A DNA stretch of 54,359 nucleotides from Anaerolineae bacterium. Its GTDB lineage: Bacteria > Chloroflexota > Anaerolineae > UBA4142 > SHND01. The notes under the pieces were generated by a model, which did not search any database, was not told the DNA's origin, and was given only the letters and a program-made list of their open reading frames with translations. Shown here piece after piece: positions 31,828 through 52,372 of the stretch. The position numbers and the translations under genes are program-made. The stretch spans positions 1-54,359 of the forward strand of contig JAJVIA010000031.1 of assembly GCA_022072245.1 (NCBI GenBank), read 5' to 3'. Every line of letters starts with the position of its first letter. Position 1 is the first letter of the stretch.

Positions 31828-33051
31828 TTAACCCGCTTCGCTCTCGCGCGCGATTTCATCTTCGGCGGCGATAATGCCCGAAGCGGCTTCTTGCTCTTCG
31901 CCTTCGTGCAGTTCGCGCGCGCGTACGGCGCTGGGCAAGAGACCTTCCGGCCGAAAGAGCATCATTAGCACCAACGCCAAGCCAAACAAGCCGTACCGCC
32001 ATGAAGACGGCGCGAGAATGGTGCCGAGATTTTGCGGACCGAAAAGACCGGTGAGGGCGGGCAAAACCACGCGGTCCACCCCCACCAGGACGAGTCCGCC
32101 GAGCAGCGCGCCGTATGGATTGCCGATGCCGCCGACGATTACGGCGCACAAGATGAGGACGGACACGGTGAAATCAAAGTTGCTGGGAAATACCGCTTGG
32201 ATATAGCTGGCATAATAGGCGCCGGCAAAGCCGGAAAACATTGCGCCCATCATGAATGCCATCAGCTTGGTGCGAACGACGTCAATGCCCATAGCGGCTG
32301 CCGCGTCCTCGTCTTCGCGCATTGCCATCCACGCGCGCCCGAGCCGCGAGATTTCAAGCCGTTGATTGACAAAGACGAGAAAGATGACGAGCAGAATCGC
32401 GAGCCAGTACCAGGGCCCGAGAAAGATTTTGGAAAAGACGAAATCGGTGAACGGGATGACCGGCAGCGCGATAGGATTCACGCCGCGTTCGCCGGCGGTC
32501 AGGTCAATGCAGCCCGAAGTGAGCAGCGGAATCGAGACGCAGGTGAGATTGCGAAAGACCACCGGGATAATTTCGCCAAAGCCCAATGTGACGATGGCGA
32601 GATAATCGCCGCGCAGCGGAATCGTCGGCGCGCCGAGAACCAGCCCGGCGAACAGGGCGATGGCGGCGGAAATGAGAATCGCAACCCAAAAGTAATTGAA
32701 CGGAAAAGGAATGACCGGATTTTGCCAGGGCGGAGTCGGCGTCGTAAGCAGCGCCATCGCGTAGGCGCCGATAGCAAAAAACGCGGCGTAACCGAGGTCA
32801 AGCAAGCCGGCATAGCCCACGACGATGTTGAGGCCGAGCGCCAAGATGGAGAACATGAGCACGGTCACAAAACTGCCGGTATAGCCGCCAAAGCGATATG
32901 CGGAAATTTGTTGGAGCCCGGTGTCAATTAGCGGATAGGCAAACGCGAGCGCGAGCAAAAGAAAGAGGGGCCATCTTTTGCGTACATATTCGCCAATGCC
33001 GCCCTTTTTCGCTTGGGGCTTGGGAGTGGATGTGGAATTGCTCATACGCAT
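31828..33051 (-). CDS. livM: Branched-chain amino acid ABC permease LivM (second copy)
   Basis: 407 residues with about ten transmembrane helices. Diagnostic segments: GLNIVVGYAGLLDLGYAAFFAIGAY, RGDYLAIVTLGFGEI, and the cytoplasmic coupling stretch RLGRAWMAMREDEDAAAAMG, which docks to the LivG/LivF ATPases. Together with LivH it forms the HAAT-family transmembrane channel. The C-terminal tail (about 385-407) is acidic and extends past the last helix. The ATG directly follows the LivH stop codon with AAAAGG upstream. Confidence 0.94.
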   Translation of the reverse strand: MRMSNSTSTPKPQAKKGGIGEYVRKRWPLFLLLALAFAYPLIDTGLQQISAYRFGGYTGSFVTVLMFSILALGLNIVVGYAGLLDLGYAAFFAIGAYAMALLTTPTPPWQNPVIPFPFNYFWVAILISAAIALFAGLVLGAPTIPLRGDYLAIVTLGFGEIIPVVFRNLTCVSIPLLTSGCIDLTAGERGVNPIALPVIPFTDFVFSKIFLGPWYWLAILLVIFLVFVNQRLEISRLGRAWMAMREDEDAAAAMGIDVVRTKLMAFMMGAMFSGFAGAYYASYIQAVFPSNFDFTVSVLILCAVIVGGIGNPYGALLGGLVLVGVDRVVLPALTGLFGPQNLGTILAPSSWRYGLFGLALVLMMLFRPEGLLPSAVRARELHEGEEQEAASGIIAAEDEIARESEAG

Positions 33052-34101
33052 CTATGCCTTTTGGGTTACAGTGGTGCCAAGGAAACCGGAAGGGCGAAAA
33101 ACGAGAACGAGGACGAGAACGGCAAACACTACTGCGCGCGTCCATTGACCGGCGAGATACTGGTCGCTCAAAGCGGAAATGAGGCCGATGAAAAAGCCGC
33201 CCATCACCGCGCCGGTGATATTCCCAATGCCGCCCAACACAGCCGCCGTGAACGCTTTCAAGCCCATATCAAAGCCCATATTCCACACGACCCCTTCGTA
33301 ATACAATCCGCCCGCGACGCCGCCCACGCCCGCGAGCGCGCCGCCGATAAGAAAGGTCATGGAAATAATGCGGTCAATATCAATCCCCATCAGGCGCGCG
33401 GCGTCTCGATTTTGCGCCGTCGCGCGCATCGCTTTGCCTGTGCGCGTGCGGCGCACAAAGACGGTTAATGCAATCATCAAGGGGATGGCGAGCGCCAGCG
33501 CAAAAAGATGCTTGGGCGTCAAGTTAATCGCGAGTCCGGTGTCAGCCAGGATATTTGCTTTCGAGACGAGGGCGGGAAATCCTTTGGACACGGAACCGCT
33601 GCCGCCGAAATAGATAAAAGGGTTCGAAGGCAGCGTCGCCCAAAATAAACCGACCTGTTCGAGAATGAACGAGACGCCGATGGCGGTAATCAAGGCGGCG
33701 AGGCGTGAGGAATTACGCAGCGGCCGATAAGCAAAACGCTCAATCGTGACGTTCAAGAGGGCGCAGACGACGGGCGCGGTCAAAAACATGAGCAGCACCG
33801 CCATCAAATTATACAGGGGGCCGCTTTCTTCACTGGCGCGCAGCAGCGAGGCGATGGTCAAAGAGAGCATCGCGCCAATCATGTACACGTCGCCATGCGC
33901 GAAATTCACCAATTCGATGATGCCATAAACCATCGTGTATCCGATTGCGACGAGCGCGAAAATGGCGCCTTGCGACAAGCCATTTATCACCTGCGTGATA
34001 AATAGCTCGGGGTCTCGCAAAAACCAAGAGATGAGCAGAGCGACCAAGCCCAAGATAAGGAGTGCGAGTATAACATTGCGGACGCTGAACTTGAATTTCA
34101 T
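33052..34101 (-). CDS. livH: Branched-chain amino acid ABC permease LivH (second copy)
   Basis: 349 residues. Family landmarks: GLSQGAIFALVAIGYTMVYGIIELVNFAHGDVYMIGA, RPLRNSSRLAALITAIGVSFILEQ, the coupling stretch GKAMRATAQNRDAARLMGID, and AAVLGGIGNITGAVMGG. An insertion around residues 170-200 (FIYFGGSGSVSKGFPALV) makes it longer than the typical 300 residues. It is translated just before LivM2. Confidence 0.94.
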   Translation of the reverse strand: MKFKFSVRNVILALLILGLVALLISWFLRDPELFITQVINGLSQGAIFALVAIGYTMVYGIIELVNFAHGDVYMIGAMLSLTIASLLRASEESGPLYNLMAVLLMFLTAPVVCALLNVTIERFAYRPLRNSSRLAALITAIGVSFILEQVGLFWATLPSNPFIYFGGSGSVSKGFPALVSKANILADTGLAINLTPKHLFALALAIPLMIALTVFVRRTRTGKAMRATAQNRDAARLMGIDIDRIISMTFLIGGALAGVGGVAGGLYYEGVVWNMGFDMGLKAFTAAVLGGIGNITGAVMGGFFIGLISALSDQYLAGQWTRAVVFAVLVLVLVFRPSGFLGTTVTQKA

Positions 34102-34250: not shown

Positions 34251-35492
34251 TTATTGGCCGATACCGACGAACTCGAACTTGCCGTCCTTGATGACGTTGC
34301 GAGTCATCGTGGTCAGCGTGGTATCGCCGTTTGCGTCAAAGGACCACGCGGTGCCGAGAATGCCTTTGAAATCTTTGGTGGCAAAGACTTGATCGCGGAC
34401 ACAGACGCGGGTCATGGTGTTTTTGGCGGCACATTCGTCAATGGCTTTGAGAAGCACGAGCGCGGATTCATAGCCATAGATCCCATAGTTATCCGGCTCT
34501 TTGCCGAATTTCTTGACGTAATCTGCGTGCCATTGTTTGCCTTCGGGGCTGATTTTGTCAAGCTCCGAGACGGGAACGCCTGCGAAAGTGATGTAGGTGC
34601 CTTCGGCATCCGCGCCCGCTTGCTTGATAAAGTCTTCGGTCATGAGTCCGTCGGGACCCATCATCATGCCTTTGTAGCCCGCCGAGCGCAGCGCTTTCCA
34701 GACCAAGCCGGCGTTGCTCGACGTAACCCCGCCAAAGAAAAAGAGGTCGGGATTTTGGCTGACGATTTTCGCGGCGAGCGAACTATAATCGGTGGCTTTG
34801 GTGTCAATGCCTTCCTGTCCGAGAACGGTCATGCCGAGTTCTTTGGCGGTTTTGTTGAATACATCGCCAATTCCCTTGCCATAGAGTTGTTGGTCGTCAA
34901 GGATATAGACGGACTTGGCGCCGAGTTCTTTGGCCCAGCGCGCATCCACCGCGCCCTGAATATCGTCCGCCGCGACGGTGCGCGTATAGTTGCGAACTTT
35001 GCTGGGATAATATTTGTCCGGTTCGGATGGGTCGGTGACGCCCGCAACGGCTTTGGTCAGTCCGGGATAAGTGTTGCCGCCGCTAATCATTACCAGCGGG
35101 CCGGCTTGATTCAAAATCGGAATCGAAAGTTTGGCTGCGCCCGAGTTGTAGGTGCCAAGATACCCCATGATTTGGGGATCGGCGGCGGCTTTGTTTGCGT
35201 TGGAGGTTTCGACATCGGGGTCCCAGGCGCCGCGCGCGGCGCTGGCATCGTCTAACGCTTCAAAGACGATGGTATAGTTACCTGCTTTGTCCCCGTGTTT
35301 TTCGAGCGCGAGTTGCGCCGAATTGGCTAGGGCTTGGCCGGGGCCCGAATCGCCGCCGGTGAGTGGGGTGCTAGAGACAATCTTGATAGTGTTGCTTCCG
35401 GTCGCGCCTCCGCCGCCCGGCAATCCGCCGCACGCGCTGACCAGCGCCGCCGCGCCCACCATTGTCCCAATCGCCAACAATTTGAGCTTCAT
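34251..35492 (-). CDS. LivK-type ABC amino acid-binding lipoprotein
   Basis: 413 residues. The lipoprotein signal has the lipobox LVSACGG. The mature part is a type I periplasmic-binding fold (Peripla_BP_6): IVSSTPLTGGDSGPGQALAN, NQAGPLVMISGGNTYPGLTK, VYILDDQQLYGKGIGD, and FFFGGVTSSNAGLVWKALRSAGYKG. It should deliver branched-chain or related amino acids to LivHM. The ATG at 35490-35492 follows a strong AGGAGGAG site. A longer open frame upstream is an artefact. It is a different sequence from the fused receptor at 39148-42279. Confidence 0.93.
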   Translation of the reverse strand: MKLKLLAIGTMVGAAALVSACGGLPGGGGATGSNTIKIVSSTPLTGGDSGPGQALANSAQLALEKHGDKAGNYTIVFEALDDASAARGAWDPDVETSNANKAAADPQIMGYLGTYNSGAAKLSIPILNQAGPLVMISGGNTYPGLTKAVAGVTDPSEPDKYYPSKVRNYTRTVAADDIQGAVDARWAKELGAKSVYILDDQQLYGKGIGDVFNKTAKELGMTVLGQEGIDTKATDYSSLAAKIVSQNPDLFFFGGVTSSNAGLVWKALRSAGYKGMMMGPDGLMTEDFIKQAGADAEGTYITFAGVPVSELDKISPEGKQWHADYVKKFGKEPDNYGIYGYESALVLLKAIDECAAKNTMTRVCVRDQVFATKDFKGILGTAWSFDANGDTTLTTMTRNVIKDGKFEFVGIGQ

Positions 35493-35682: not shown

Positions 35683-36396
35683 CTATTCTTCGCCCAAATA
35701 CAATTTGCGAATCTGCTCATTCGCAGCCAGCTCTTGCGCGTTGCCTTCCAACATGATGCGTCCCGTTTCCAAGACATAGCCCCGGTTTGCAACCGAAAGC
35801 GCGCGCGCGGCGTTTTGTTCCACCAACAAAATGGTGGTGCCTTCTTGATTCAGCGTCTTGATGATTTCAAAGATGGTATCCACAAGCACCGGCGCCAGAC
35901 CCATGGAAGGTTCGTCGAGCATGAGGACGCGCGGGCGCGTCATGAGCGCGCGCCCCATGGCGAGCATCTGTTGTTCGCCGCCGGAAAGAGTGCCGCCGGC
36001 TTGGGTGCGTCGTTCGGCGAGTCGCGGGAAAAGTTGGAAAACATGGTCAAGGTCTTTTTTGACGCCGTCTTTGTCCGACCGCGAATAGGCGCCCATTTCC
36101 AAATTTTCTTGGACGGTTAGGCGGGTGAAAATTTGACGGCCTTCTGGCGATTGACCGATGCCTTTGGTGACGATTTGGTGCGCCGGCATCCCGTTGATTT
36201 GTTCGTCGTTTAGCAAGACGACGCCGCTGCGCGGGTGCAGCAAGCCCGAAATGGTGCGGATGGTCGTCGTTTTGCCCGCGCCGTTCGCGCCAATCAGCGT
36301 GACGATTTCGCCCTGTTCGACGGTGAGAGAAATGCCTTTGAGCGCGTGAATGTGGCCGTAATAGGTGTGAATGTCGTTGACCTGAAGAAGTGACAT
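35683..36396 (-). CDS. livF: Branched-chain amino acid ABC ATPase LivF
   Basis: 237 residues. Walker A GANGAGKTT, Q-loop region near TKGIGQSPEGRQIF, signature LSGGEQQMLAMGRAL, Walker B VLMLDEPSMGLAP and H-loop segment. The MPAHQIVTKGI and RLTVQENLEMG segments are typical of LivF. It pairs with LivG just upstream to energise the permeases. The start ATG at 36394-36396 fits the family N-terminus MSLLQVNDIHTYYG. Confidence 0.96.
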   Translation of the reverse strand: MSLLQVNDIHTYYGHIHALKGISLTVEQGEIVTLIGANGAGKTTTIRTISGLLHPRSGVVLLNDEQINGMPAHQIVTKGIGQSPEGRQIFTRLTVQENLEMGAYSRSDKDGVKKDLDHVFQLFPRLAERRTQAGGTLSGGEQQMLAMGRALMTRPRVLMLDEPSMGLAPVLVDTIFEIIKTLNQEGTTILLVEQNAARALSVANRGYVLETGRIMLEGNAQELAANEQIRKLYLGEE

Positions 36397-36473
36397 AATC
36401 AAAAAGATGGGATGAGGTATGTGGACCAAAGGTTGGCAACGCATCCTTTAGCGCCCATACCGCAGGCCTATCG

Positions 36474-37250
36474 TTAAATGTGCATTTCCGATGAGCCGAG
36501 ATATGCTTCGCGCACGCGCGGATTTTGTTGAACTTCGGCGGGCGAACCTTCGGCGATTTTGACGCCGAAATCTAAAACGGTTACGCGTTCCGAAATAGTC
36601 ATGACGACGCGCATGTGGTGTTCGATGAGCAAAATCGTGACATTCATTTCCTGACGCAGTTTGCGGATAAAGTCCACCATCAGGAGCGATTCTTGCGGAT
36701 TCATGCCGGCGGTGGGTTCGTCGAGCAGCAAGAGTTTGGGATTGGTGCCGAGCGCGCGCGCAATTTCTAGCCGCCGTTGGTCGCCGTACGCGAGATTTTT
36801 GGCGAGGATGTTGCCTTTGCCGCGCAAGCCGACAAAGCGCAAGAGTTCGGCTGCGCGGTTTTGCACGTGCGCTTCTTCTTCGCGCGTTCCGCGATTGAGC
36901 AAGAGCGCGCCAAGGACGCCGGCTTTCATGCGCGGATGTTGACCCACCATCACGTTTTCGAGCGCGGTCATGTTGCTAAACAGCCGGATATTTTGAAACG
37001 TGCGCGCGATGCCCAGCTTGGTGATTTGGTGCATCTTGAGGCCGACGGTGGGCGTATCGCCGAATTGAATCGCGCCTTCTTCGGGCGTGTAATAGCCCGT
37101 GATGCAATTAAAAAAGGTCGTTTTGCCTGCGCCGTTCGGACCAATGAGACTGACGATTGAACCCTCTTCAATCGTAAAGTCCACATTATCCACTGCGGTC
37201 AGCCCGCCGAATCGTTTGGTAACGCCTTGCGTTTGAAGGATGGTCGCCAT
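36474..37250 (-). CDS. livG: Branched-chain amino acid ABC ATPase LivG
   Basis: 258 residues. Walker A GPNGAGKTT, GIARTFQNIRLF at the Q-loop, the signature region LAYGDQRRLEIARAL (LivG has YG in place of SGG), Walker B LLLLDEPTAGMNP, and the switch His in IEHHMRVVM. The C-terminal VREAYLGSSE is typical. Only one LivG/LivF pair serves two LivHM pairs in this window. Confidence 0.96.
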   Translation of the reverse strand: MATILQTQGVTKRFGGLTAVDNVDFTIEEGSIVSLIGPNGAGKTTFFNCITGYYTPEEGAIQFGDTPTVGLKMHQITKLGIARTFQNIRLFSNMTALENVMVGQHPRMKAGVLGALLLNRGTREEEAHVQNRAAELLRFVGLRGKGNILAKNLAYGDQRRLEIARALGTNPKLLLLDEPTAGMNPQESLLMVDFIRKLRQEMNVTILLIEHHMRVVMTISERVTVLDFGVKIAEGSPAEVQQNPRVREAYLGSSEMHI

Positions 37251-37329: not shown

Positions 37330-38073
37330 TCAGTGCAAGATTTTGCTCAAAAACTGTTTCATGCGATCGTTTGTTGGATTGTCAAACATTTCTTGAGGCG
37401 TGCCTTCGGCGACGATGGCGCCGGCATCCATGAAAATAACGCGCGAGGCGGCGTTGCGCGCAAAGCCCATTTCGTGCGACACCACCAACATGGTCATGCC
37501 TTCTGCGGCGAGGTCGAGCATCACATCCAGCACCTCATTAATCATTTCGGGGTCCAGCGCGCTGGTCGGTTCGTCAAACAACATGACTTTGGGATTCATG
37601 GCGAGCGCGCGCGCGATGGCGACGCGCTGCTGCTGTCCGCCCGAGAGCTGCCCCGGATACATATTTATTTTCTCCGGGATGCGTACTTTACGCAAGAGGT
37701 CATGCGCGATGTCAATGCTCTCTGGTTTGGCGCGTTTGCGAACTTGGATTTGCGCGAGCGTCAAATTTTCCAAAACCGTCAGATGCGGAAATAAATTGAA
37801 CTGTTGAAAGACCATGCCGACTTCGGCGCGCACGGCGTTGATATTTTGATGTTTGGCGTCAATGGTATTGTTATCCACGATGATGCGTCCGCTGTCAATC
37901 GTTTCCAAACCGTTAATCGAACGGAGCAAGGTGGATTTGCCGCAGCCGCTTGGTCCGATGACGACCAGCACCTGACCTTTGTTGACATGCGTCGAAACGC
38001 CGCGCAAGGCGTGAACGTTGCCGAAATGTTTGTGTACGTCTTGAATTTGGATAATCGCGTTAGGTTGCGTCAT
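37330..38073 (-). CDS. Polar amino acid ABC ATPase (GlnQ type)
   Basis: 247 residues, ATPase of the PAAT family. Walker [29 protein letters not shown] (the family's Q-loop signature), [17 protein letters not shown], Walker [15 protein letters not shown], switch His in [13 protein letters not shown]. It should energise the permease encoded just upstream. It is followed in the same direction by LivG and LivF, ATPases of a different ABC family. Confidence 0.95.
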
Positions 38074-38200: not shown

Positions 38201-39076
38201 TTAGAGCTGTTTCCAACGCGTTTCAATCCAGCGCGTCAACAGCGATAAAGTCAAAGTCAAGGTGAGGTAGATAAAGGCGAGCGAGTTGTACGCTTCAACA
38301 TAACGAAAGGTGGTGGAGGCGTAGAGCCGCGCTTCTTGCGTAATGTCGCGCACGCCCAGCACCGAAGCCAGCGAAGAATCTTTGAGCATAGAAATTAAAT
38401 CGTTGCCCAGCGGCGGCAGCACGCGGCGAATCGCTTGCGGCAGGACCACAAAACGCATCGCCTGAAAATATGTCATGCCCAATGAACGCGCCGCTTCCAC
38501 CTGCCCCTTGCCGATGGATTCGATGCCGGCGCGAAAGGTTTCCGCTTCATAGCCGCCATACGCAAACGCGAGCGCAATGACGACGACCCAATACAAGTTA
38601 ATATCGGACGGCTTGATTTTTGCCAAGATGTTATCGGCGCCGAGGGCGGGCGCCAACATGTCGCCGAACACATTCAAAAGGCCGATCAAGCCCGGAAAGA
38701 TTACAAAGCCCCAATAAAAAATTTGCACCAACATCGGGATGCCGCGCACGACTTGGACGTACAGCGTCGAGAGATTAAAGAGGACCACATTTTTCGAGAC
38801 GCGGCCCAGCCCGGCTAGCAAACCCAAAACGAGCGCGCAAGAATAACCCAGCGCCGTAATCGAAAGCGTTACAAGAATACCTGAGAGGATGCGGCGAAAA
38901 ATCTGTTGGTAGGTCTCGTTCGAGGCAAATTGGAACGCGAGAATCGCGCCGCCCAAAAGTAGCAGAATAAGCCACCACGGCAGACCTGACAAGCGGTCAA
39001 CGACCTTGACTTGAAAGGTCCCCGGCGTTTCAGGACGGGTTGAAGCCATGCCAGAGGGTTCAGGGTTAGAGTTCAT
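38201..39076 (-). CDS. Polar amino acid ABC permease (GlnP/HisM type)
   Basis: 291 residues with five or six transmembrane helices. A ~30-residue polar N-terminus precedes the first helix. The PAAT landmarks are GILVTLSITALGYSCALVLG, VQVVRGIPMLVQIFYWG and the coupling loop EAARSLGMTYFQAMRFVVLPQAIRRVLPP. The insert between helices (GDMLAPALGADNILAKIKPSDIN) is longer than usual. It follows the three-domain receptor gene after 71 bases. Its receptor is presumably the GlnH-type domain at that protein's C-terminus. Confidence 0.93.
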   Translation of the reverse strand: MNSNPEPSGMASTRPETPGTFQVKVVDRLSGLPWWLILLLLGGAILAFQFASNETYQQIFRRILSGILVTLSITALGYSCALVLGLLAGLGRVSKNVVLFNLSTLYVQVVRGIPMLVQIFYWGFVIFPGLIGLLNVFGDMLAPALGADNILAKIKPSDINLYWVVVIALAFAYGGYEAETFRAGIESIGKGQVEAARSLGMTYFQAMRFVVLPQAIRRVLPPLGNDLISMLKDSSLASVLGVRDITQEARLYASTTFRYVEAYNSLAFIYLTLTLTLSLLTRWIETRWKQL

Positions 39077-39147
39077 TTTGAAAGAGAGGCCCAAGTCCTC
39101 GTCCCGGCAACTTGGACCTCTATCCTAAAGCGTTGTCTAGTCCGCGC

Positions 39148-42100
39148 CTATTGATTCTCGAACCACTTTTTCTCGAGCGCGGCGATAGTGCCGTCGTCCG
39201 TCATGGCTTGAATAGCGGCGTTCACGGGGGCGACGAGGGAAGAACCCTTGGGAAAGACAAACCCAAGATATTGCGTGAGCAATGGCTCTTCCATAATCTT
39301 GATCTTGTCGGCGTTTTCGGTCAGATACTGTTTGGCGAACGAGTTGTCCGCGACCACAATATCCACTTGCTGCGTAATCAAGGCATTGACGGCTTCGGGG
39401 AACTGGTCGAAACCGATTACGTTCGCTTCGCCCCAGGCCTTGACGGCTTCGTCATAGTTGGTGGTGCCTTTTTGCGTGCCGACCTTGAGGTCTTTCATGG
39501 CTTTGGCTTCAGCCAAAGTCTTGAACCGCGTTTCGTCGGCGCGCGTCATGACCACTTGACTAACGGTTTGATAGGGGATGGAGAAATCAACGGTCTTGGC
39601 GCGTTCATCCGTAATCGTTACGCCGTCGGCTGCCATGTCAAATTGATTTTGAGAGATGGCGGCGAGCATACCGTCCCACGCGATTTCCTTGAACACGGGT
39701 TTGCAGTTGATGCGTTTGCAAATTTCGGCGAGCGCGTCATAGTCCCAGCCCACGCCCTTGCCCGTCGCCGTGTCAATGGCGTTGAACGGCGGATAGGCGT
39801 TTTCTACGGCAACGGTAATTTCTTTGCCGCCGAGGTCAGGCATTGCGCCGCTTGCTGTTTTGGGCGGGAACACTTGGACCCATTCGTCGCCCTGAACTTG
39901 GTTGATGATGACGTTGGTGGATTCCGGCGGGCGGTCGCCATTGGCGTCGAACGCAATACCGCCGGTGACGCCTTCCAATTTGACTTGGCGAACGGCATCC
40001 GCCAATGCCTTGCGGCCAATGGTGAGATTGCCATCGGCGTCGGGCTTGGCGACAGCTTTCAATGCCAGAGCGAGGACGTTGACGGCATCATAGGTTTGCG
40101 GCGAAAAGACAATGTTTTCCTTTTTGCCGCCCTTGGCTTCGTATTCTTTGACGAATTCGGAATAGCCGGCGCCTTGCTGCGAAGAACCGAACGAAGCATA
40201 GGTGCCTTGGCTGGCTTCGGGGATGGCTTTGATGAGGTCGGCGCTAAACGTGCCGTCGGCGCTCATGAACTTGACATCCTTCATGCCGACTTCGGCTTTT
40301 TGGGTAATCAAGACGGCGGCTTCGGGCCAGAACCCGCCGAAAAAGATAATCTCGGGTTGATTGGCGGCGATTTTGGTGAGGGTGGCGCGGAAATCTTTTT
40401 CGCCGACGGTGACGGCTTCCATGTCGCCGACGACTTCACCGCCGCCGGCTTTGAAGGCTTCGGCGAACGCTTCGGCGAGACCTTGACCGTAGGGCGAACC
40501 GTCGTGCATGGTGGCGGCTTTTTTCAAGCCGAGTTCTTTGAGCACAAAGTTGGCGTCGGCGGGACCCTGAATCTTGTCGTTAAAGGCGGTGCGGTTAACG
40601 GTGGGCAAACCGCGCGAAGTGACGGTGACGGCGGTGGCGGAAGGCGAGATGGAAACAATGTGCGCCTTGTCGAGAATTTCGCTGCCGGGAATCATGCCGC
40701 TCGAGCACATGAAACCGATGTGGCCGACGATGGCGGGGTCGGCGACAATTTTATTGGCGATGGTGGTGCCGCCGGGGCCAGAGCAGAGGTCGTCTTCGGT
40801 CACGATTTCGAGTTTGAAACCGTCAATGTCGGAACCGAATTTGGCGGCAGCCATTTGTGCGCCGAGCTGCATGTCTTGACCAAACAGCGCGAGGTCGCCG
40901 GTCATGGCGGCGCTAAACGATGCCTTGATGGTATCGCCTTTTTTAACTGTGACGGTGCCCCATTCATCGGGTCCTGTCGCAGCCGTGGTCTTGGGCGGGA
41001 ACACTTGGACCCATTCGTCGCCCTGAACTTGGTTGATGATGACGTTGGTGGATTCCGGCGGGCGGTCGCCATTGGCGTCGAACGCAATACCGCCGGTGAC
41101 GCCTTCCAATTTGACTTGGCGAACGGCATCCGCCAATGCCTTGCGGCCAATGGTGAGATTGCCATCGGCGTCGGGCTTGGCGACAGCTTTCAATGCCAGA
41201 GCGAGGACGTTGACGGCATCATAGGTTTGCGGCGAAAAGACAATGTTTTCCTTTTTGCCGCCCTTGGCTTCGTATTCTTTGACGAATTCGGAATAGCCGG
41301 CGCCTTGCTGCGAAGAACCGAACGAAGCATAGGTGCCTTGGCTGGCTTCGGGGATGGCTTTGATGAGGTCGGCGCTAAACGTGCCGTCGGCGCTCATGAA
41401 CTTGACATCCTTCATGCCGACTTCGGCTTTTTGGGTAATCAAGACGGCGGCTTCGGGCCAGAACCCGCCGAAAAAGATAATCTCGGGTTGATTGGCGGCG
41501 ATTTTGGTGAGGGTGGCGCGGAAATCTTTTTCGCCGACGGTGACGGCTTCCATGTCGCCGACGACTTCACCGCCGCCGGCTTTGAAGGCTTCGGCGAACG
41601 CTTCGGCGAGACCTTGACCGTAGGGCGAACCGTCGTGCATGGTGGCGGCTTTTTTCAAGCCGAGTTCTTTGAGCACAAAGTTGGCGTCGGCGGGACCCTG
41701 AATCTTGTCGTTAAAGGCGGTGCGGTTAACGGTGGGCAAACCGCGCGAAGTGACGGTGACGGCGGTGGCGGAAGGCGAGATGGAAACAATGTGCGCCTTG
41801 TCGAGAATTTCGCTGCCGGGAATCATGCCGCTCGAGCACATGAAACCGATGTGGCCGACGATGGCGGGGTCGGCGACAATTTTATTGGCGATGGTGGTGC
41901 CGCCGGGGCCAGAGCAGAGGTCGTCTTCGGTCACGATTTCGAGTTTGAAACCGTCAATGTCGGAACCGAATTTGGCGGCAGCCATTTGTGCGCCGAGCTG
42001 CATGTCTTGACCAAACAGCGCGAGGTCGCCGGTCATGGCGGCGCTAAACGATGCCTTGATGGTATCGCCTTTTTTAACTGTGACGGTGCCCCATTCGTCG

Positions 42101-42279
42101 GGTCCCGCCGCAGGCGCTTGGGTGGGTTGCACGGGCGCAGCCGTCGGTTGCGCGGGGGCTTGGGTGGGCTGCGCGGGGGCTTGAGTCGGCGCGGGCGCGG
42201 GCGTTACCGGCGCGGCGCAGGCGCTAATCACAAGAATTAACGCCAATAGAGTCAAGCCAAAAATAAACGTACGTTTCAT
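39148..42279 (-). CDS. Three-domain ABC receptor lipoprotein: two LivJ-type domains fused to a GlnH-type domain
   Basis: 1043 residues, far longer than a normal receptor (about 350-420). Order: lipoprotein signal with lipobox ISAC (Cys21). A Pro/Ala/Gln/Thr-rich linker covers about 22-58. The first type I binding domain (59 to about 435) starts GPDEWGTVTVKKGD, with GIPTVNRT-like and FFGGFWPEAAVLI segments. The second copy (436 to about 808) appears identical in sequence. A type II binding domain of the PAAT class (about 816-1043) includes ITVAVENAYPPFNAID, FDMAADGVTITDERAKTVDFS and VGTQKGTTNY. The two families normally use separate receptors. Neighbouring genes encode permeases of both families (LivHM upstream, PAAT downstream), so this protein may feed both. 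A strong GGAGGAG site precedes the ATG. An assembly error or a recent duplication must be considered for the repeat. Confidence 0.9.
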   Translation of the reverse strand: MKRTFIFGLTLLALILVISACAAPVTPAPAPTQAPAQPTQAPAQPTAAPVQPTQAPAAGPDEWGTVTVKKGDTIKASFSAAMTGDLALFGQDMQLGAQMAAAKFGSDIDGFKLEIVTEDDLCSGPGGTTIANKIVADPAIVGHIGFMCSSGMIPGSEILDKAHIVSISPSATAVTVTSRGLPTVNRTAFNDKIQGPADANFVLKELGLKKAATMHDGSPYGQGLAEAFAEAFKAGGGEVVGDMEAVTVGEKDFRATLTKIAANQPEIIFFGGFWPEAAVLITQKAEVGMKDVKFMSADGTFSADLIKAIPEASQGTYASFGSSQQGAGYSEFVKEYEAKGGKKENIVFSPQTYDAVNVLALALKAVAKPDADGNLTIGRKALADAVRQVKLEGVTGGIAFDANGDRPPESTNVIINQVQGDEWVQVFPPKTTAATGPDEWGTVTVKKGDTIKASFSAAMTGDLALFGQDMQLGAQMAAAKFGSDIDGFKLEIVTEDDLCSGPGGTTIANKIVADPAIVGHIGFMCSSGMIPGSEILDKAHIVSISPSATAVTVTSRGLPTVNRTAFNDKIQGPADANFVLKELGLKKAATMHDGSPYGQGLAEAFAEAFKAGGGEVVGDMEAVTVGEKDFRATLTKIAANQPEIIFFGGFWPEAAVLITQKAEVGMKDVKFMSADGTFSADLIKAIPEASQGTYASFGSSQQGAGYSEFVKEYEAKGGKKENIVFSPQTYDAVNVLALALKAVAKPDADGNLTIGRKALADAVRQVKLEGVTGGIAFDANGDRPPESTNVIINQVQGDEWVQVFPPKTASGAMPDLGGKEITVAVENAYPPFNAIDTATGKGVGWDYDALAEICKRINCKPVFKEIAWDGMLAAISQNQFDMAADGVTITDERAKTVDFSIPYQTVSQVVMTRADETRFKTLAEAKAMKDLKVGTQKGTTNYDEAVKAWGEANVIGFDQFPEAVNALITQQVDIVVADNSFAKQYLTENADKIKIMEEPLLTQYLGFVFPKGSSLVAPVNAAIQAMTDDGTIAALEKKWFENQ
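39844..42105 (-). repeat. 1131-bp tandem repeat inside the fused receptor gene
   Basis: Two in-frame units, 42105-40975 and 40974-39844 in coding order, exactly 1131 bases (377 codons) apart. From 39860/40991 the copies look identical for about 1.1 kb. The first differences seen are near the 5' end of the unit (for example A at 40966 against G at 42097, silent) and at the junction. Such identity implies a very recent duplication, gene conversion or an assembly artefact. Confidence 0.92.
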
Positions 42280-42613
42280 TCTGTTCTCCTCCTCCGAGAA
42301 CTGCGAAAAAATTTCGCAAATTCGTAACGCGGGTGCGTCACATTATGGGTTGACTGACCTACCAATCCGGGCGCGAGGTGCGAGGCATCTGTCAATGCGC
42401 TCTGCGTAACGTCTGGTTGGGCCTGCGTCCGGCAAGAGCCACGCGCGATTTGGTTCGTTCACCGCCATTGAACGAGCGACAAATCGAGTGGCGCAGCTGC
42501 AAGAGGGATTGGATTCACAGCTGCTAGAGTTATTAGCGCGCGAGTATAGCGCAGTTGAATGTGCGTGTCAAAGCGAATCTGTCGGGCGAATAAAATCGCT
42601 TGCGCCCGTCGTT
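42280..42613 (-). other. Long leader region of the fused receptor gene
   Basis: 334 bases without a gene. A consensus promoter at its upstream end would give a leader of about 255 bases. Visible structures: a two-part stem joining CGATTTG with CAAATCG and TCGTTCA with TGAACGA around the loop at about 42450-42490, and GCGAAA/TTTCGC (42303-42308, 42312-42317) next to the ribosome site. No known riboswitch is recognised. Confidence 0.6.
42543..42571 (-). promoter_or_regulatory. Consensus promoter of the fused receptor operon
   Basis: Minus strand: TTGACA (42566-42571), exactly 17 bases, TATACT (42543-42548). It lies between LivM1 and the fused receptor, so the receptor and downstream genes can be expressed independently of LivH1/LivM1. 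Confidence 0.8.
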
Positions 42614-44149
42614 TCAATTGGATTCGATGATTTCAAGTTCGGGTTCGCGTTCGTGAAATTCTAATTTGCGTCGCGCGGAAGGAATCAAACCTTCGGGCCG
42701 CACCAACATCATTACGACCAAGAGCGCGGAATAGGCGAGCAGACGATAATCCGAAACCGGGCGCAACACTTCGGGCAAGCCAATTAACACGACCGAACCG
42801 ATAATGACGCCGGGAATCGAACCCAAGCCGCCGATAATGATGAGCGCCAGCGTGTTGATTGAAATCAACAAAGTAAAATCGTCGGGGAAAATGTGCTGCT
42901 GCCGCGAGGCGTAAATGGCTCCGGCGAGACCCGCGAAAAATGCGCCCGTGCCGAACGCCAACAGTTTCGCGCGCGTCGTATTCACGCCCATCGCTTCGGA
43001 CGCGTCTTCGTCTTCGCGCATTGCCGTCCACGCGCGTCCCGTGCGCGAATCATTCAAACGCAGCGCGATGAACGCGACAATGATGCACGTGAAAAAAATC
43101 AGATACCAAAACGGCGTCGAAGAATTAAATTCAACCGTGTAACCGATAATGGGAATCGTAAAGGTGGGCGCGGCGACATTGAGCACGCCTTGCGGGCCGC
43201 CCGTGTAGGGATTGAATTTCAGAATGATGCGAATGATTTCGCCAAAGCCGAGCGTGACGATGGCTAAATAATCGCCGCGCAAACGCAGCACCGGAATGCC
43301 GAGCAGCGTCCCCGCGATGGCTGCCATAATCATTGCTACGGGCAGCGCGAGCCAAAAGGTCCAGCCGAACGGATAATTGGGCGAGGTCAATACCGCCATC
43401 GTGTAGGCGCCGATGGCAAAGAAACCGACATAGCCCAAATCGAGCAAACCCGCGAAACCGACGACGATGTTTAGACCGAGACCGAGTAAAACATACAAGC
43501 CGATGGAACCCAGCACTTGATTCCAATAGACGCCGATAAACAACGGCGCGAGAAATAGAAACAAGCCCGCCGCGATGAGCGCGCCCGTTTGCACGCGGCG
43601 CGTCGTGGTTTCCGAAGCGCGACTCGCTTCAGCCGGGCGGCGGCGTTTTTGCAAGGCGTTCCAGCCCAGCGTCAGCAGCGCGCCTATCACACCGAACGCA
43701 GCCATGAGGATTACCCAAATCGCCGCGCCGATTAACGGCGGTTGGTCAAACAACAATGCTTGCACCGTTTCCGGTTTTACTTTTTCAAAAACGAACGCGA
43801 CATTGAATCCTGCCGCATACAGCGCATCCACAATGACCAAGAACAATCCCATCATTGCGCCCGCGAGCGCTGTGGCGCCGACGGCGCGCGCGAACATGGC
43901 GCCTGCGCGCGGCGCGCGGCGCGCAGCTAAAAATCCAATGATGATGGCGGATACGGCGGTCACAATCCGCGAAAATTGCGGATTGGTCATGCTCGGAACT
44001 TGGGCGGCGATTTCGCTCGCGGTGGCGCCTTTGATGGTGAGCCACAAGCCGCTCAAGGTCAATTGTTCGAACGTGGTGTACACGCCAATCAGAACAAAGA
44101 ACAAGAGGACAAAGCCGGATACCAGTCCGGTACGAATGGCTGAACGCAT
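42614..44149 (-). CDS. livM: LivM-type permease with extra N-terminal membrane domain (first copy)
   Basis: 511 residues, about 150-200 longer than a standard LivM. Residues 1-165 form an added region with four or so hydrophobic segments (start GLVSGFVLLFFVLIGVYTTF; later GAAIWVILMAAFGVIGALL) and a basic linker (about 167-187). The LivM core follows: GLNIVVGFAGLLDLGYVGFFAIGAY, RGDYLAIVTLGFGEIIRI, and the coupling stretch TGRAWTAMREDEDASEAMG. It sits 12 bases after LivH1. The role of the extension is unknown. There is no ATPase in this pair, so LivG/LivF downstream probably serve it. Confidence 0.92.
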   Translation of the reverse strand: MRSAIRTGLVSGFVLLFFVLIGVYTTFEQLTLSGLWLTIKGATASEIAAQVPSMTNPQFSRIVTAVSAIIIGFLAARRAPRAGAMFARAVGATALAGAMMGLFLVIVDALYAAGFNVAFVFEKVKPETVQALLFDQPPLIGAAIWVILMAAFGVIGALLTLGWNALQKRRRPAEASRASETTTRRVQTGALIAAGLFLFLAPLFIGVYWNQVLGSIGLYVLLGLGLNIVVGFAGLLDLGYVGFFAIGAYTMAVLTSPNYPFGWTFWLALPVAMIMAAIAGTLLGIPVLRLRGDYLAIVTLGFGEIIRIILKFNPYTGGPQGVLNVAAPTFTIPIIGYTVEFNSSTPFWYLIFFTCIIVAFIALRLNDSRTGRAWTAMREDEDASEAMGVNTTRAKLLAFGTGAFFAGLAGAIYASRQQHIFPDDFTLLISINTLALIIIGGLGSIPGVIIGSVVLIGLPEVLRPVSDYRLLAYSALLVVMMLVRPEGLIPSARRKLEFHEREPELEIIESN

Positions 44150-44161
44150 ATGCGGAAAATG

Positions 44162-45262
44162 TTATGCCTTTTCGGCGCCGAGTTGTTCGCCCAAAATACC
44201 TTGCGGGCGGAAAATCAAAACCAGCACGAGCAGAGTGAATGCAATCACATCTTTGTATTGCGAAGGGATGCCCAACAAGCTAGGACCCAGCGCTTCGGAT
44301 AAACCTAAAATGAAACCGCCCAACATGGCGCCGGGGATATTGCCGATGCCGCCCAGCACTGCCGCCGTGAACGCTTTGATGCCCGGAAAAAAGCCCATCG
44401 TCGAATTGATTTGGCTGTTGTGAAAACCGAGCATGACGCCCGCCGCGCCCGCCAAAATCGAGCCGATGGCAAAGGTGATGACAATGATGCGGTCAACGCT
44501 AATGCCCATCAACGCGGCGGCTTCTTTGTTGGTCGCCACGGCGCGCATGGCGCGTCCGGTGCGGGTGTGTTGCACCAACCAATACAAAACGACCATCATG
44601 ATGATTGAGGCGACAATAATAAACGCGCCGGTAATCGGCACCGCCACATTGCCCGGCAGCGTGATGGCGCCTTGCAGCATCGCCGGTTTGTTATAGACGC
44701 GAATGGGCGCGCCAAAAATCAAGCGTGAAGTTTCTTGCAAAAAGACGGACGCGCCGATGGCGGTAATCAAGGGGACGAGCCGCGGCGCCGCGCGCAGCGG
44801 CCGATACGCGATGCGTTCCAAGCCGATGCCCATGAGCATGGAAACCAACATGCCCGCGCCAAAGACCAAGAGCAAAGTCGCCACTTGATTGGTTTTGGTA
44901 AAACCGGTGGCGTCGCACGCCGCCAAAACGAAAAAGCCCGCGTACGCGCCAAACATGACGATTTCGCCGTGCGCGAAATTAATCATCATGAGAATGCCGT
45001 ACACAAGCGTATAGCCGAGCGCGATGAGCGCGTACACGCCGCCGAGGACCAGACCGTTGCTGATTTGAAAAGCCCAGTACGCCGGGGGGTACGATTTGCC
45101 GGCGGCAGCCAAATCCATTTGCACTTGAATCACGCGCAAAATCAAGAGCAAAACAAAAATGGCGGCGACGACGGCAATCCAATTAACTCTGGAATACCAG
45201 GGACGCTGTTTGCGGCCGAGGATGGGAGCGTTATTGTGACTAGTTGCCGGATTTGCGGACAC
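44162..45262 (-). CDS. livH: Branched-chain amino acid ABC permease LivH (first copy)
   Basis: 366 residues. An N-terminal basic segment (about 1-25) precedes the first helix. LivH landmarks: GLVLGGVYALIALGYTLVYGILMMINFAHGEIVMFGAY, RPLRAAPRLVPLITAIGASVFLQE, GRAMRAVATNKEAAALMGI (coupling stretch), AAVLGGIGNIPGAMLGG. The start is GTG, read from the strong TTTGAGGAGAAG site directly upstream; no ATG fits as well. It lies 115 bases downstream of a tRNA-Gly gene on the same strand. Confidence 0.94.
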   Translation of the reverse strand: MSANPATSHNNAPILGRKQRPWYSRVNWIAVVAAIFVLLLILRVIQVQMDLAAAGKSYPPAYWAFQISNGLVLGGVYALIALGYTLVYGILMMINFAHGEIVMFGAYAGFFVLAACDATGFTKTNQVATLLLVFGAGMLVSMLMGIGLERIAYRPLRAAPRLVPLITAIGASVFLQETSRLIFGAPIRVYNKPAMLQGAITLPGNVAVPITGAFIIVASIIMMVVLYWLVQHTRTGRAMRAVATNKEAAALMGISVDRIIVITFAIGSILAGAAGVMLGFHNSQINSTMGFFPGIKAFTAAVLGGIGNIPGAMLGGFILGLSEALGPSLLGIPSQYKDVIAFTLLVLVLIFRPQGILGEQLGAEKA

Positions 45263-45377
45263 ACCTTCTCCTCAAAGGAAAAGATTCGCCAGAGTGCGGC
45301 GCTATGCGCATGGCCCAAGAATGGATCATGCTGAATCATCAAGCGTATTTGATTTGCAGATAAACGAAAAGAGGGAA

Positions 45378-45448
45378 GCGGGAGACGGGATTTGAACCCG
45401 CGCTCCTCTGCTTGGGAAGCAGATGCTTTACCACTAAGCTACTCCCGC
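45378..45448 (-). tRNA. tRNA-Gly (anticodon CCC)
   Basis: 71 bases plus discriminator fold into a full cloverleaf: acceptor GCGGGAG/CTCCCGC, D-arm with AGTGGTAAAGC, anticodon stem TCTGC/GCAGA with loop TTCCCAA (anticodon CCC), and T-arm with GGTTCAAATCC. CCA is not encoded. The discriminator reads T, as expected for bacterial glycine tRNAs. It has its own consensus promoter on the minus strand. Confidence 0.96.
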
Positions 45449-45458
45449 ATTTGTTCCG

Positions 45459-45486
45459 ATTATAGCGCGGGATTGACGATTGTCAA
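45459..45486 (-). promoter_or_regulatory. Promoter of tRNA-Gly
   Basis: Minus strand: TTGACA (45481-45486), 16 bases, TATAAT (45459-45464). Its -35 box overlaps the -35 box of the divergent promoter for the MBL-fold gene. Confidence 0.8.
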
Positions 45487-50613: not shown

Positions 50614-51174
50614 ATGAAAAACCTTTTCACCGGCAAACTCACGCGGCTTGTCGCGCAAGACATTGACGCGATGGGCGCGGTCATTGCCAAGTGGTCGCGT
50701 GATTCAGAATTTTATCAATTGTTCGACAGCGACCCCACGCGCCCGCGCAATGCGAAACGCGCGCAAGAACAGATGCGCGATTACGCCGAAAAAAATCAAC
50801 CGGGCAATTTTTCGTTTGCCGTCATGCGCTTGGAAGATGATCGCATTATCGGCGAAGGCGGTTTGTTTGATGCGCTGTCGCCCCATCGCAACGCGTGGCT
50901 CGCCATCGGCATCGGCGAACGCGAATTGTGGGGCAAGGGGTATGGCACGGACGCGGTGCAGATTCTCTTGCGTTTCGGTTTTCAAGAATTGAATCTGCAT
51001 CGCATCAATCTCGGCGTCTTTGGCTATAACGCGCGCGCCATTCGCGCGTATGAAAAAATCGGTTTCGTCCACGAAGGCGCGTGGCGCGACGCGTTAAAGC
51101 GCGAGGGCAAACGCTGGGATAGTATCGGGATGGGCATTTTGAAAAGCGAATGGGAAGCGAAACAAAATGAATGA
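50614..51174 (+). CDS. GNAT-family N-acetyltransferase 2
   Basis: 186 residues. The acetyl-CoA-binding loop GERELWGKGYGTDAVQILL is intact, followed by the RimL-like QELNLHRINLGVFGYNARAIRAYEKIGF. The N-terminus MKNLFTGKLTRLVAQD is shared with acetyltransferases 3 and 4. The target amine is unknown. No Shine-Dalgarno precedes the ATG, which directly follows the repeat element. The stop overlaps acetyltransferase 3 by eight bases, so these two are translated together. Confidence 0.9.
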   Translation: MKNLFTGKLTRLVAQDIDAMGAVIAKWSRDSEFYQLFDSDPTRPRNAKRAQEQMRDYAEKNQPGNFSFAVMRLEDDRIIGEGGLFDALSPHRNAWLAIGIGERELWGKGYGTDAVQILLRFGFQELNLHRINLGVFGYNARAIRAYEKIGFVHEGAWRDALKREGKRWDSIGMGILKSEWEAKQNE

Positions 51175-51736
51175 TTCTTTATTCACCGGAACGCTCGTCC
51201 GTCTCGCCGCCCAAGACCCGGCAGCGGATGCGCAAACGATATCAAATTGGCGCCGCGACACGATTTACACGCGCTGGTTGGAAGTGGATCCCGTCTTGCC
51301 GCCCCAACTAAAACAGACGCGTGAACGCATCGAACGGCCGCACAGTGAACGCTTTTATCCGTTCGCCATTCGCGCGCTCGCCGACGACAAATTGATTGGC
51401 TTTGTCATACTCTTGCGCGTCAATTCACATCACCGCGACGCGTACGTAGGCATCGGCATTGGCGAAAGCGAGTATCGCAGCAAAGGATACGGCACGGACG
51501 CGATGAAGCTGATTTTGCAATTCGCATTTCAAGAATTGAATTTGCATCGCGTTTCGCTCGATGCCGTCGCGACCAATGCGCGCGCGATTCGTTCCTACGA
51601 AAAATGCGGTTTTGTTCACGAAGGCAAAACGCGCGGCGCCGAATTTCGCGGCGGCATCCGCGACGACATTGTTACGATGGGAGTTTTGCGAGAGGAATGG
51701 GAGCGAAATGGAACAGGTAATCAGGTAGACAGGTAG
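51167..51736 (+). CDS. GNAT-family N-acetyltransferase 3
   Basis: 189 residues. Acetyl-CoA loop YRSKGYGTDAMKLILQFA and motif B QELNLHRVSLDAVATNARAIRSYEKCGF. It is a close paralogue of genes 2 and 4. Its last codons (NGTGNQVDR) are encoded by the start of the AGGTAGAC repeat, and the TAG stop is part of that repeat. The original C-terminus may therefore have been replaced. It overlaps gene 2 by eight bases. Confidence 0.9.
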   Translation: MNDSLFTGTLVRLAAQDPAADAQTISNWRRDTIYTRWLEVDPVLPPQLKQTRERIERPHSERFYPFAIRALADDKLIGFVILLRVNSHHRDAYVGIGIGESEYRSKGYGTDAMKLILQFAFQELNLHRVSLDAVATNARAIRSYEKCGFVHEGKTRGAEFRGGIRDDIVTMGVLREEWERNGTGNQVDR

Positions 51737-51808
51737 ACAGGGGTTCAGGTAGACAGGTATCAGGTAGGCAGGTAGGCATGTTCCTTGTTTCCCTGTTTCC
51801 TTGTCTAC
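51713..51808. repeat. Intergenic element with AGGTAGAC tandem units
   Basis: About eight degenerate copies of CAGGTAGA-type units (51713-51778), then TTCCTTGTTTCCCTGTTTCC and TTGTCTAC up to 51808. GTAGACAGGTAGACAGGG (51725-51742) is complementary to 51791-51808 at 15 of 18 bases, so the transcript can fold back. It spans the whole gap between acetyltransferases 3 and 4. Confidence 0.8.
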
Positions 51809-51817
51809 ATTTAACAC

Positions 51818-52372
51818 ATGAACAATCTTTTCACAGGCAAACTCGTCAAACTCACCGCCACCAATCCAGAAACGGACGCGAAAATAATGGAGGTGTGGCA
51901 CCGCGACACGGAATTTTTTCGTCTCGGCTATGGACGCATTGCGGAAGCGTGGGGTGAGAAAAAAATCAAAGAACGCATCGAACGGTACGGCAACGATGCG
52001 AACGAACCTGTCTTTGCGGTTCGCACGCGCGCCGATGACAAACTCATCGGACAAATGGGAATGTGGATTGAGCAACCGCACGGCGACAGTTTTGTGTGGA
52101 TTTTGATTGGCGAACGCGACTATTGGGGCAAAGGGTACGGCACGGACGCGATGCGCGTCTTTATGCGTTACGCGTTTCAGGAATGGAATCTGCATCGTTT
52201 GTCGCTGCGCGTTTTTGGTTTCAACCAACGCGCGCTGCGTTCGTACGAAAAATGCGGTTTTGTGTACGAAGGCGTCAACCGTAACGCGCTCAACAAAATG
52301 GGACAGCGTTGGGATGAAGTGTGGATGGGAATTACGCGCGGTGAGTGGGAGAAAACAAAGGATGAAGGATGA
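51818..52372 (+). CDS. GNAT-family N-acetyltransferase 4
   Basis: 184 residues. Acetyl-CoA loop GERDYWGKGYGTDAMRVFM, then QEWNLHRLSLRVFGFNQRALRSYEKCGF. The N-terminus MNNLFTGKLVKLTATN matches gene 2. The region RDTEFFRLGYGRIAEAWGEKK probably forms the acceptor site and differs most among the paralogues, consistent with different substrates. No Shine-Dalgarno is seen; the ATG follows a repeat element. Confidence 0.9.
   Translation: MNNLFTGKLVKLTATNPETDAKIMEVWHRDTEFFRLGYGRIAEAWGEKKIKERIERYGNDANEPVFAVRTRADDKLIGQMGMWIEQPHGDSFVWILIGERDYWGKGYGTDAMRVFMRYAFQEWNLHRLSLRVFGFNQRALRSYEKCGFVYEGVNRNALNKMGQRWDEVWMGITRGEWEKTKDEG

Follow-up and report, generated by a model that had tools for sequence, protein, structure and literature searches.

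Can receptors of two ATP-binding cassette (ABC) importer families be held by one lipid anchor, and if so, what would such a chain be used for? The question is raised by a gene of an Anaerolineae bacterium (phylum Chloroflexota), found on a 54,359-nt contig (JAJVIA010000031.1 of assembly GCA_022072245.1), the whole of which is hereafter called the window. The gene runs from 42279 to 39148 on the minus strand. In a single open frame of 1043 codons, from ATG to stop, it encodes a lipobox signal, a Pro/Thr-rich linker, two HAAT domains of the Pfam family Peripla_BP_6 (called H) and one PAAT domain of the family SBP_bac_3 (called P), in this order. This fusion is genuine, is maintained across its genus and has counterparts elsewhere in the class. 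Its likeliest use appears to be transport in which a single receptor supplies two pumps: as judged from gene order, we give a probability of about 0.68 to a single lipid-anchored receptor that would serve the two ABC importers encoded around it.

A chain of three receptor domains

A sequence-only reading of this DNA had proposed a 1043-residue lipoprotein at these positions, and the coordinates were borne out, on the minus strand. It had also claimed one signal peptide followed by a Pro-rich linker, which agrees with what was found. The signal (42217..42279, minus strand, as for all genes and domains below unless stated) carries the lipobox ISAC with Cys21. It was called from motif and hydropathy, the most hydrophobic window being residues 5-23, and lipidation itself is predicted. 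Residues 22-60 (42100..42216) form, by composition, a Pro/Thr/Ala/Gln-rich linker. No second signal peptide or membrane segment was seen, as no 19-residue window starting past residue 30 had a mean hydropathy above 1.6.

The two type I domains and the one type II domain of the same reading were recovered by a Pfam domain search. Peripla_BP_6 (PF13458) matched in two stretches (E 1.9e-82, 278.2 bits versus a curated cut-off of 31.7) and SBP_bac_3 (PF00497) in one stretch, residues 821-1041 (E 7e-37, 126.6 bits versus 26.4). The first HAAT domain covers residues 61-432 (40984..42099) and the second residues 438-809 (39853..40968), all four ends being approximate; the PAAT domain covers residues 809-1043 (39151..39855), with an approximate start. 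ANF_receptor, Peripla_BP_5 and Lig_chan-Glu_bd were also above their cut-offs over the same residues, the last of them within P (34.7 bits versus 30). The top NCBIfam models for the chain were branched-chain and lysine/arginine/ornithine receptors, every one below its cut-off.

The nearest PDB relative of H was the E. coli Leu/Ile/Val-binding protein, LIVBP (1z15, E 2.3e-38), of the LIVBP/LivK group, and those of P were ArtJ (2pvu, E 3.2e-33) and AncQR (4zv1). These relatives, the Pfam matches and the linked liv and his genes support the proposal of a HAAT/PAAT receptor fusion. Seven LIVBP positions were inspected, S79, T102, Y202, E226, Y18, L77 and A100, which we take to be contacts of the bound amino acid. 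In H, S79 and T102 are retained, Y202 is replaced by F and E226, read by eye, by D, and these four contacts are counted as kept or conservatively exchanged, as for a HAAT receptor. H differs further by Y18 to F, L77 to M and A100 to S. For P, R460 and D545 of an alignment of four rows (A1), presumably the Arg/Asp clamp of the amino acid, are unchanged across all rows.

A long plus-strand open reading frame (ORF; 39112-42240) lies opposite the fusion gene. It is itself repetitive because the fusion gene is, and we take it as a by-product of that gene.

The locus in the genus and its tandem H copies

Twenty genomes of the taxonomic order were surveyed, six of the genus (G000, the window genome, to G005) and 14 of a sister family. 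H and P were found at the same cluster position in all six genus genomes, and in one open frame in five of them; Pfam detected both domains in each of the four other intact fusions. In the sixth, G003, the gene is split between two contigs inside H: one contig ends in the signal, the linker and an initial portion of H, the second opens with the final portion of H and P, and the middle of H was not found. Therefore, the co-occurrence of H and P is not due to chance. The concern, voiced with the sequence-only reading, that the fusion might be confined to this assembly fails as well, and a one-assembly artefact is ruled out by the five further genomes that have the locus. The same reading had looked to related genomes for the same domain order. 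They do carry H and P, but order and number of H copies vary: the chain is H-H-P in G000, H-P in G001 and G004, P-H in G002 and P-H-H in G005.

The gene order LivH1-LivM1-fusion-HisM-HisP-LivG-LivF-LivJ-LivH2-LivM2 is unchanged in the five other genus genomes, as far as their contigs extend (G003 being on two contigs, and the G004 contig stopping within LivJ). By eye, the linker that joins P to H in G002 runs on as the C-terminal tail of P does in G001 (GPGAY..TPTP), and P thus seems to have moved together with its tail in G002; this is less clear in G005.

No H+P fusion was found in the 14 sister-family genomes, one of which (G016) gave no match at E ≤ 1e-25 and was left out; from the 13 others, 16 stretches were read. 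In 10 of these 13 genomes, P and H are separate genes, colinear in the order P-HisM-HisP-LivG-LivF-H-LivH-LivM, except that HisP was not detected in G008, G010 and G018. The best match of the G008 receptor is the LivJ of the window. In G013, P and HisM match weakly and the stretch stops after LivH. P and H are on separate contigs in G012 and G014, and no H was found in the G019 cluster.

In the tree of the linked genes, G000 groups with G003 (81/76), and G004 with G002 and G005 (100/100). The H domains of the genus form one clade (100/100), in which the two copies of G000 are identical and the two of G005 sit with that of G002. The P domains of G000 and G003 stand apart from those of G001, G002, G004 and G005, with 60-67% amino acid identity between the two groups. 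That the P module was replaced in these two genomes, G000 and G003, is no more than a candidate reading, as a single clade of all six genus P domains was not rejected by the approximately unbiased (AU) test (p 0.186).

The two H domains of the window are a direct repeat with a spacing of 1131 bp and 99.8% identity over 1118 aligned bp, a near-exact tandem duplication that is absent from the sequence-only reading. An exact run of 1106 bp is shared by both copies (40991..42096, gene positions 184-1289, for the first copy, and 39860..40965 for the second). Twelve tandem pairs of receptor domains, nine H-H and three P-P, were compared. Identity of the H-H pairs was 100% in G031 (801-aa frame on a 3.6-kb contig), 99.8% in G000, 99.3% in G510, 90.8% in G548, 84.4% in G256, 82.2% in G486, 81.5% in G005 and 69.4% in G675 (partial, 477 bp), and in an 821-aa frame of G031 just 64 bp of the pair aligned. 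For the P-P pairs it was 95.9% (G049), 83.3% (G035) and 78.6% (G038). The H copies of G005 have a synonymous divergence (dS) of 0.75 and a dN/dS of 0.139; therefore, tandem H is real in this genome and both copies look constrained.

Granted that the fusion is real, its second exact H copy could be an assembly error, the true gene being H-P as in G001 and G004. We hold this to be unlikely, while giving it weight: the 1106 bp of the G000 copies are free of mismatches, whereas H of G000 and H of G001 differ at a dS of 0.82-0.84, the genome is a draft of 141 contigs and 79.75% completeness, and the second exact pair, of 1091 bp in G031, sits on its merely 3.6-kb contig. However, the junction between the two H domains has an in-frame sequence of its own, TTAAT, unlike the TASGAM that precedes P and unlike the Pro-rich linker. 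Diverged tandem copies are present in G005, G486, G548 and G256, as are the 99.3% identical ones of G510, and contigs break inside H in G003, G610, G429 and G052, as repeats would cause. The near-exact pairs seem to be the youngest in a graded series of divergence; some of them may be assembly errors, and the exact copies of G000 are probably a young duplication.

Fused receptors elsewhere in the class

Genome searches were kept within the phylum of the window, and plasmid records were searched besides. In a further family (f38), 15 genomes were searched with a P-H query. Single matches over the whole or nearly the whole query were obtained in five (G526, G626, G510, G566 and G541, the last stopping at its contig end), and in all five Pfam placed both domains in one frame. 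Two more (G610, G429) are fused, yet cut inside H by contig ends, two (G493, G618) gave partial, unclear matches and three (G554, G602, G586) no match to this query. The orders were P-H and P-H-H; G510 has P-H-H with LivHMGF, HisM and HisP alongside. A Pfam check of eight fusion proteins earlier named by BLAST found both domains in all eight.

A single clade of all fused H+P domains was rejected by AU tests, both for H (p 3e-57) and for P (p 4.6e-5). This points to more than one origin of the H+P fusions, which sit on different branches of the trees.

Fusions that include SBP_bac_5 (called SBP5) were also found. In a third family, G036 has an H-P-SBP5 chain of 1140 aa, with two Dpp/Opp-type permease genes and HisM-like and HisP-like genes as neighbours. 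When 396 genomes of the class were searched with this chain, one match took in both P and SBP5 in at least 30 of them, from 12 families and G036 included, a lower bound since two candidates per genome were scored. G037 and G051 additionally carry P with SBP5 in normal order. The surroundings were read for 13 P-SBP5 loci: 10 of them have a pair of Dpp-type permeases and a HisM-like gene nearby (HisP was not found in G495), and the Dpp-type pair stood alone at two (G051, at a contig end, and G561). Dpp-type here means a BLAST match to the two G036 genes, themselves named by Opp/Dpp/Nik NCBIfam models below their cut-offs. H joined to SBP5 was seen in G548 (H-SBP5 and H-H-SBP5), G675 (H-H-SBP5) and G052 (H-SBP5, at a contig edge).

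Over the phylum sample, 159 of 400 genomes matched the A1 query at E ≤ 1e-30, and among the matches listed (at most three candidates per genome scored) no single one beyond G000 covered H and P. With the P-H query, 10 of 201 genomes matched at E ≤ 1e-70, none across both domains; both scans leave room for weaker cases. Among the 2016 plasmid records with a match, the H-P query was in no case covered to 80% or more at one place. The highest coverage, 79%, came from two pieces beneath separate annotated receptor genes.

We judge it slightly better than an even bet that Anaerolineae have built receptor hubs in this way, HAAT, PAAT and SBP5 receptors being repeatedly concatenated on one anchor, in varying order and number, and feeding two or three pumps.

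Two features of single frames were observed besides. SBP_bac_5 occurs as a circular permutation, with part 64-365 of the Pfam profile before part 1-55 (L034:4122-5633 and L129:1283-3097). The G036 fusion has this permuted form, as does a G018 frame of 605 aa, in which no other receptor domain was found, and the same order was seen by BLAST in a 587-aa frame of G029. In G017, Peripla_BP_6 follows a protein kinase domain within an 863-aa frame (L111:2524-5112), which likely encodes a receptor kinase.

A probable receptor for two importers

Transcriptionally upstream of the fusion gene are the LivH-like and LivM-like HAAT permeases LivH1 (44162..45262) and LivM1 (42614..44149). Downstream follow a HisM/GlnP-like PAAT permease (38201..39094), a HisP/GlnQ-like PAAT ATPase (37330..38073), the LivG-like (36474..37250) and LivF-like (35683..36444) ATPases, a separate LivJ-like lipoprotein with one Peripla_BP_6 (34251..35492, its start set by eye at MKLK inside a longer ORF), and the second LivH-like and LivM-like permeases, LivH2 (33052..34101) and LivM2 (31828..33051). 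The permeases and ATPases were recognized by Pfam, and most NCBIfam names of the neighbours are those of best models below their cut-offs, TIGR01726 for HisM being above. Both the LivH, LivM, LivG and LivF of a HAAT system and the permease and ATPase of a PAAT system are linked to the fusion. Gaps between genes are 0-149 bp, except for about 190 bp before LivJ (with its by-eye start) and a 334-bp gap ahead of the fusion gene. This last gap holds a promoter-like site (11 of 12; 42543..42571, minus strand); across the region such sites were no more frequent than expected (6 versus 7.1), and 38 terminator-like sites were found for 22.2 expected.

If two importers are served, H would capture an aliphatic or branched-chain amino acid and dock on LivH1-LivM1/LivGF, and P would capture a polar amino acid and dock on HisM/HisP, the long linker past Cys21 allowing each domain to reach its own permease. 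With the domains fused, stoichiometry would be fixed, secretion and lipidation would take place just once and receptors would be locally concentrated; the duplication of H would raise the dose of HAAT receptor. That either domain order is tolerated suggests beads on a string rather than a rigid complex.

Tandem substrate-binding domains (SBDs) are known from GlnPQ, where they bring four binding sites close to a single translocation pathway. According to the part of PMC8025302 available, the two SBDs of the Lactococcus protein belong to a single structural cluster and are joined to the transmembrane domain of one transporter, and ligand binding at one has no effect on the other. The fusion resembles GlnPQ in having several SBDs per chain, joined by linkers near the membrane. 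It differs, as far as this account of GlnPQ goes, in that its substrate-binding protein (SBP) families are different, that no membrane domain was found (no permease domain by Pfam, no hydrophobic window starting after residue 30) and that two permease sets adjoin it. GlnPQ, whose SBDs share one translocator (PMC8025302, same part), is a precedent for H and P both serving one transporter, one of them as a capture or allosteric domain, but the different families of H and P and the presence of both matching permease sets in the genus cluster make this quite doubtful. That the chain works chiefly in sensing or in scavenging at the surface is most improbable: SBPs stimulate transmembrane receptors too (available part of PMC9602780) and the kinase-HAAT frame of G017 exists, but Pfam and hydropathy detected no transmembrane or signalling domain in the chain, and permease genes flank it.

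Several points weigh against the two-importer reading and the parallels drawn on here. Its ligand, docking and expression side is a prediction, and a structure prediction of H-P (four rows) was poor (pLDDT 52, pTM 0.31) and was set aside. Because the cluster also encodes a free-standing LivJ together with LivH2-LivM2, the two systems may share LivGF, and H of the fusion could feed either permease. Gene order is not function, as three loci illustrate: no LivHM was found within the 14.5 kb read around H-P-SBP5 of G036, no HisM or HisP beside the P-SBP5 of G561, where DppBC are present, and no Dpp or His genes beside that of G483, which adjoins LivHMGF. Nor is fusion universal in f38, P and H being in separate frames in G055, G577 and G594; in G577 they share a reading frame, but with stop codons between them. 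Finally, an old fusion, later split in intervening lines, may be compatible with the AU tests, the groups of which were named after the fusions had been seen and are separated by long branches.

By sequence, each domain of the fusion is an ordinary member of the LivJ/LivK or GlnH/HisJ/ArtJ receptors, which are proteins in their own right, in the sister family too, and are here fused. The P-SBP5, H-SBP5 and H-H-SBP5 chains of the same class likewise join receptors of different ABC families, and differ from H-H-P in that they include a peptide-receptor family, SBP_bac_5. Plant glutamate receptor-like proteins (GLRs) carry annotations for both Peripla_BP_6 and SBP_bac_3 (available part of PMC9739336), and bacterial ionotropic glutamate receptors are said to be without the amino-terminal domain (available part of PMC3483616). 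H-P resembles the exterior of such receptors, a type I domain being followed by a type II domain, in which Lig_chan-Glu_bd passes its cut-off. It differs from them in that no channel domain was found in the chain (Pfam, E ≤ 0.001), P is continuous and the order is reversed in some relatives. We take the likeness as convergence.

In the open-licence PMC literature, as far as its texts were available, no description of a HAAT-PAAT or PAAT-SBP5 fusion was found, and the words "fused", "fusion" and "tandem" do not occur in the available part of PMC9602780. Receptor fusions have a precedent within a single transporter, GlnPQ; here one anchor is shared by receptors of different families, the permeases of which are of different families as well. 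The locus offers a natural test of how tethering affects uptake, through local concentration, competition and stoichiometry. The role of domain order can be tested within the genus, because both orders and one or two copies of H exist there. A pairing of type I and type II receptors like that of the glutamate receptor exterior also exists in bacteria without a channel.

Some minor observations were made in the window and in other loci. A tRNA gene (45377-45486), the sole Rfam match, stands before livH1, with a 12-of-12 promoter-like site just upstream. At 51034-52273, a 45-nt stretch occurs in three spaced copies, 80-100% alike; by eye they resemble the acetyltransferase motif RAIRSYEKCGF and are perhaps parts of tandem GNAT genes. 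Tandem repeats with a 16-bp spacing are located near the window start (79-225). In three other frames, the HisM-like match starts at residue 287 (L117:12585-13967), 266 (L145:2155-3717) and 553 (L139:1769-4045), and these are possibly extended permeases.

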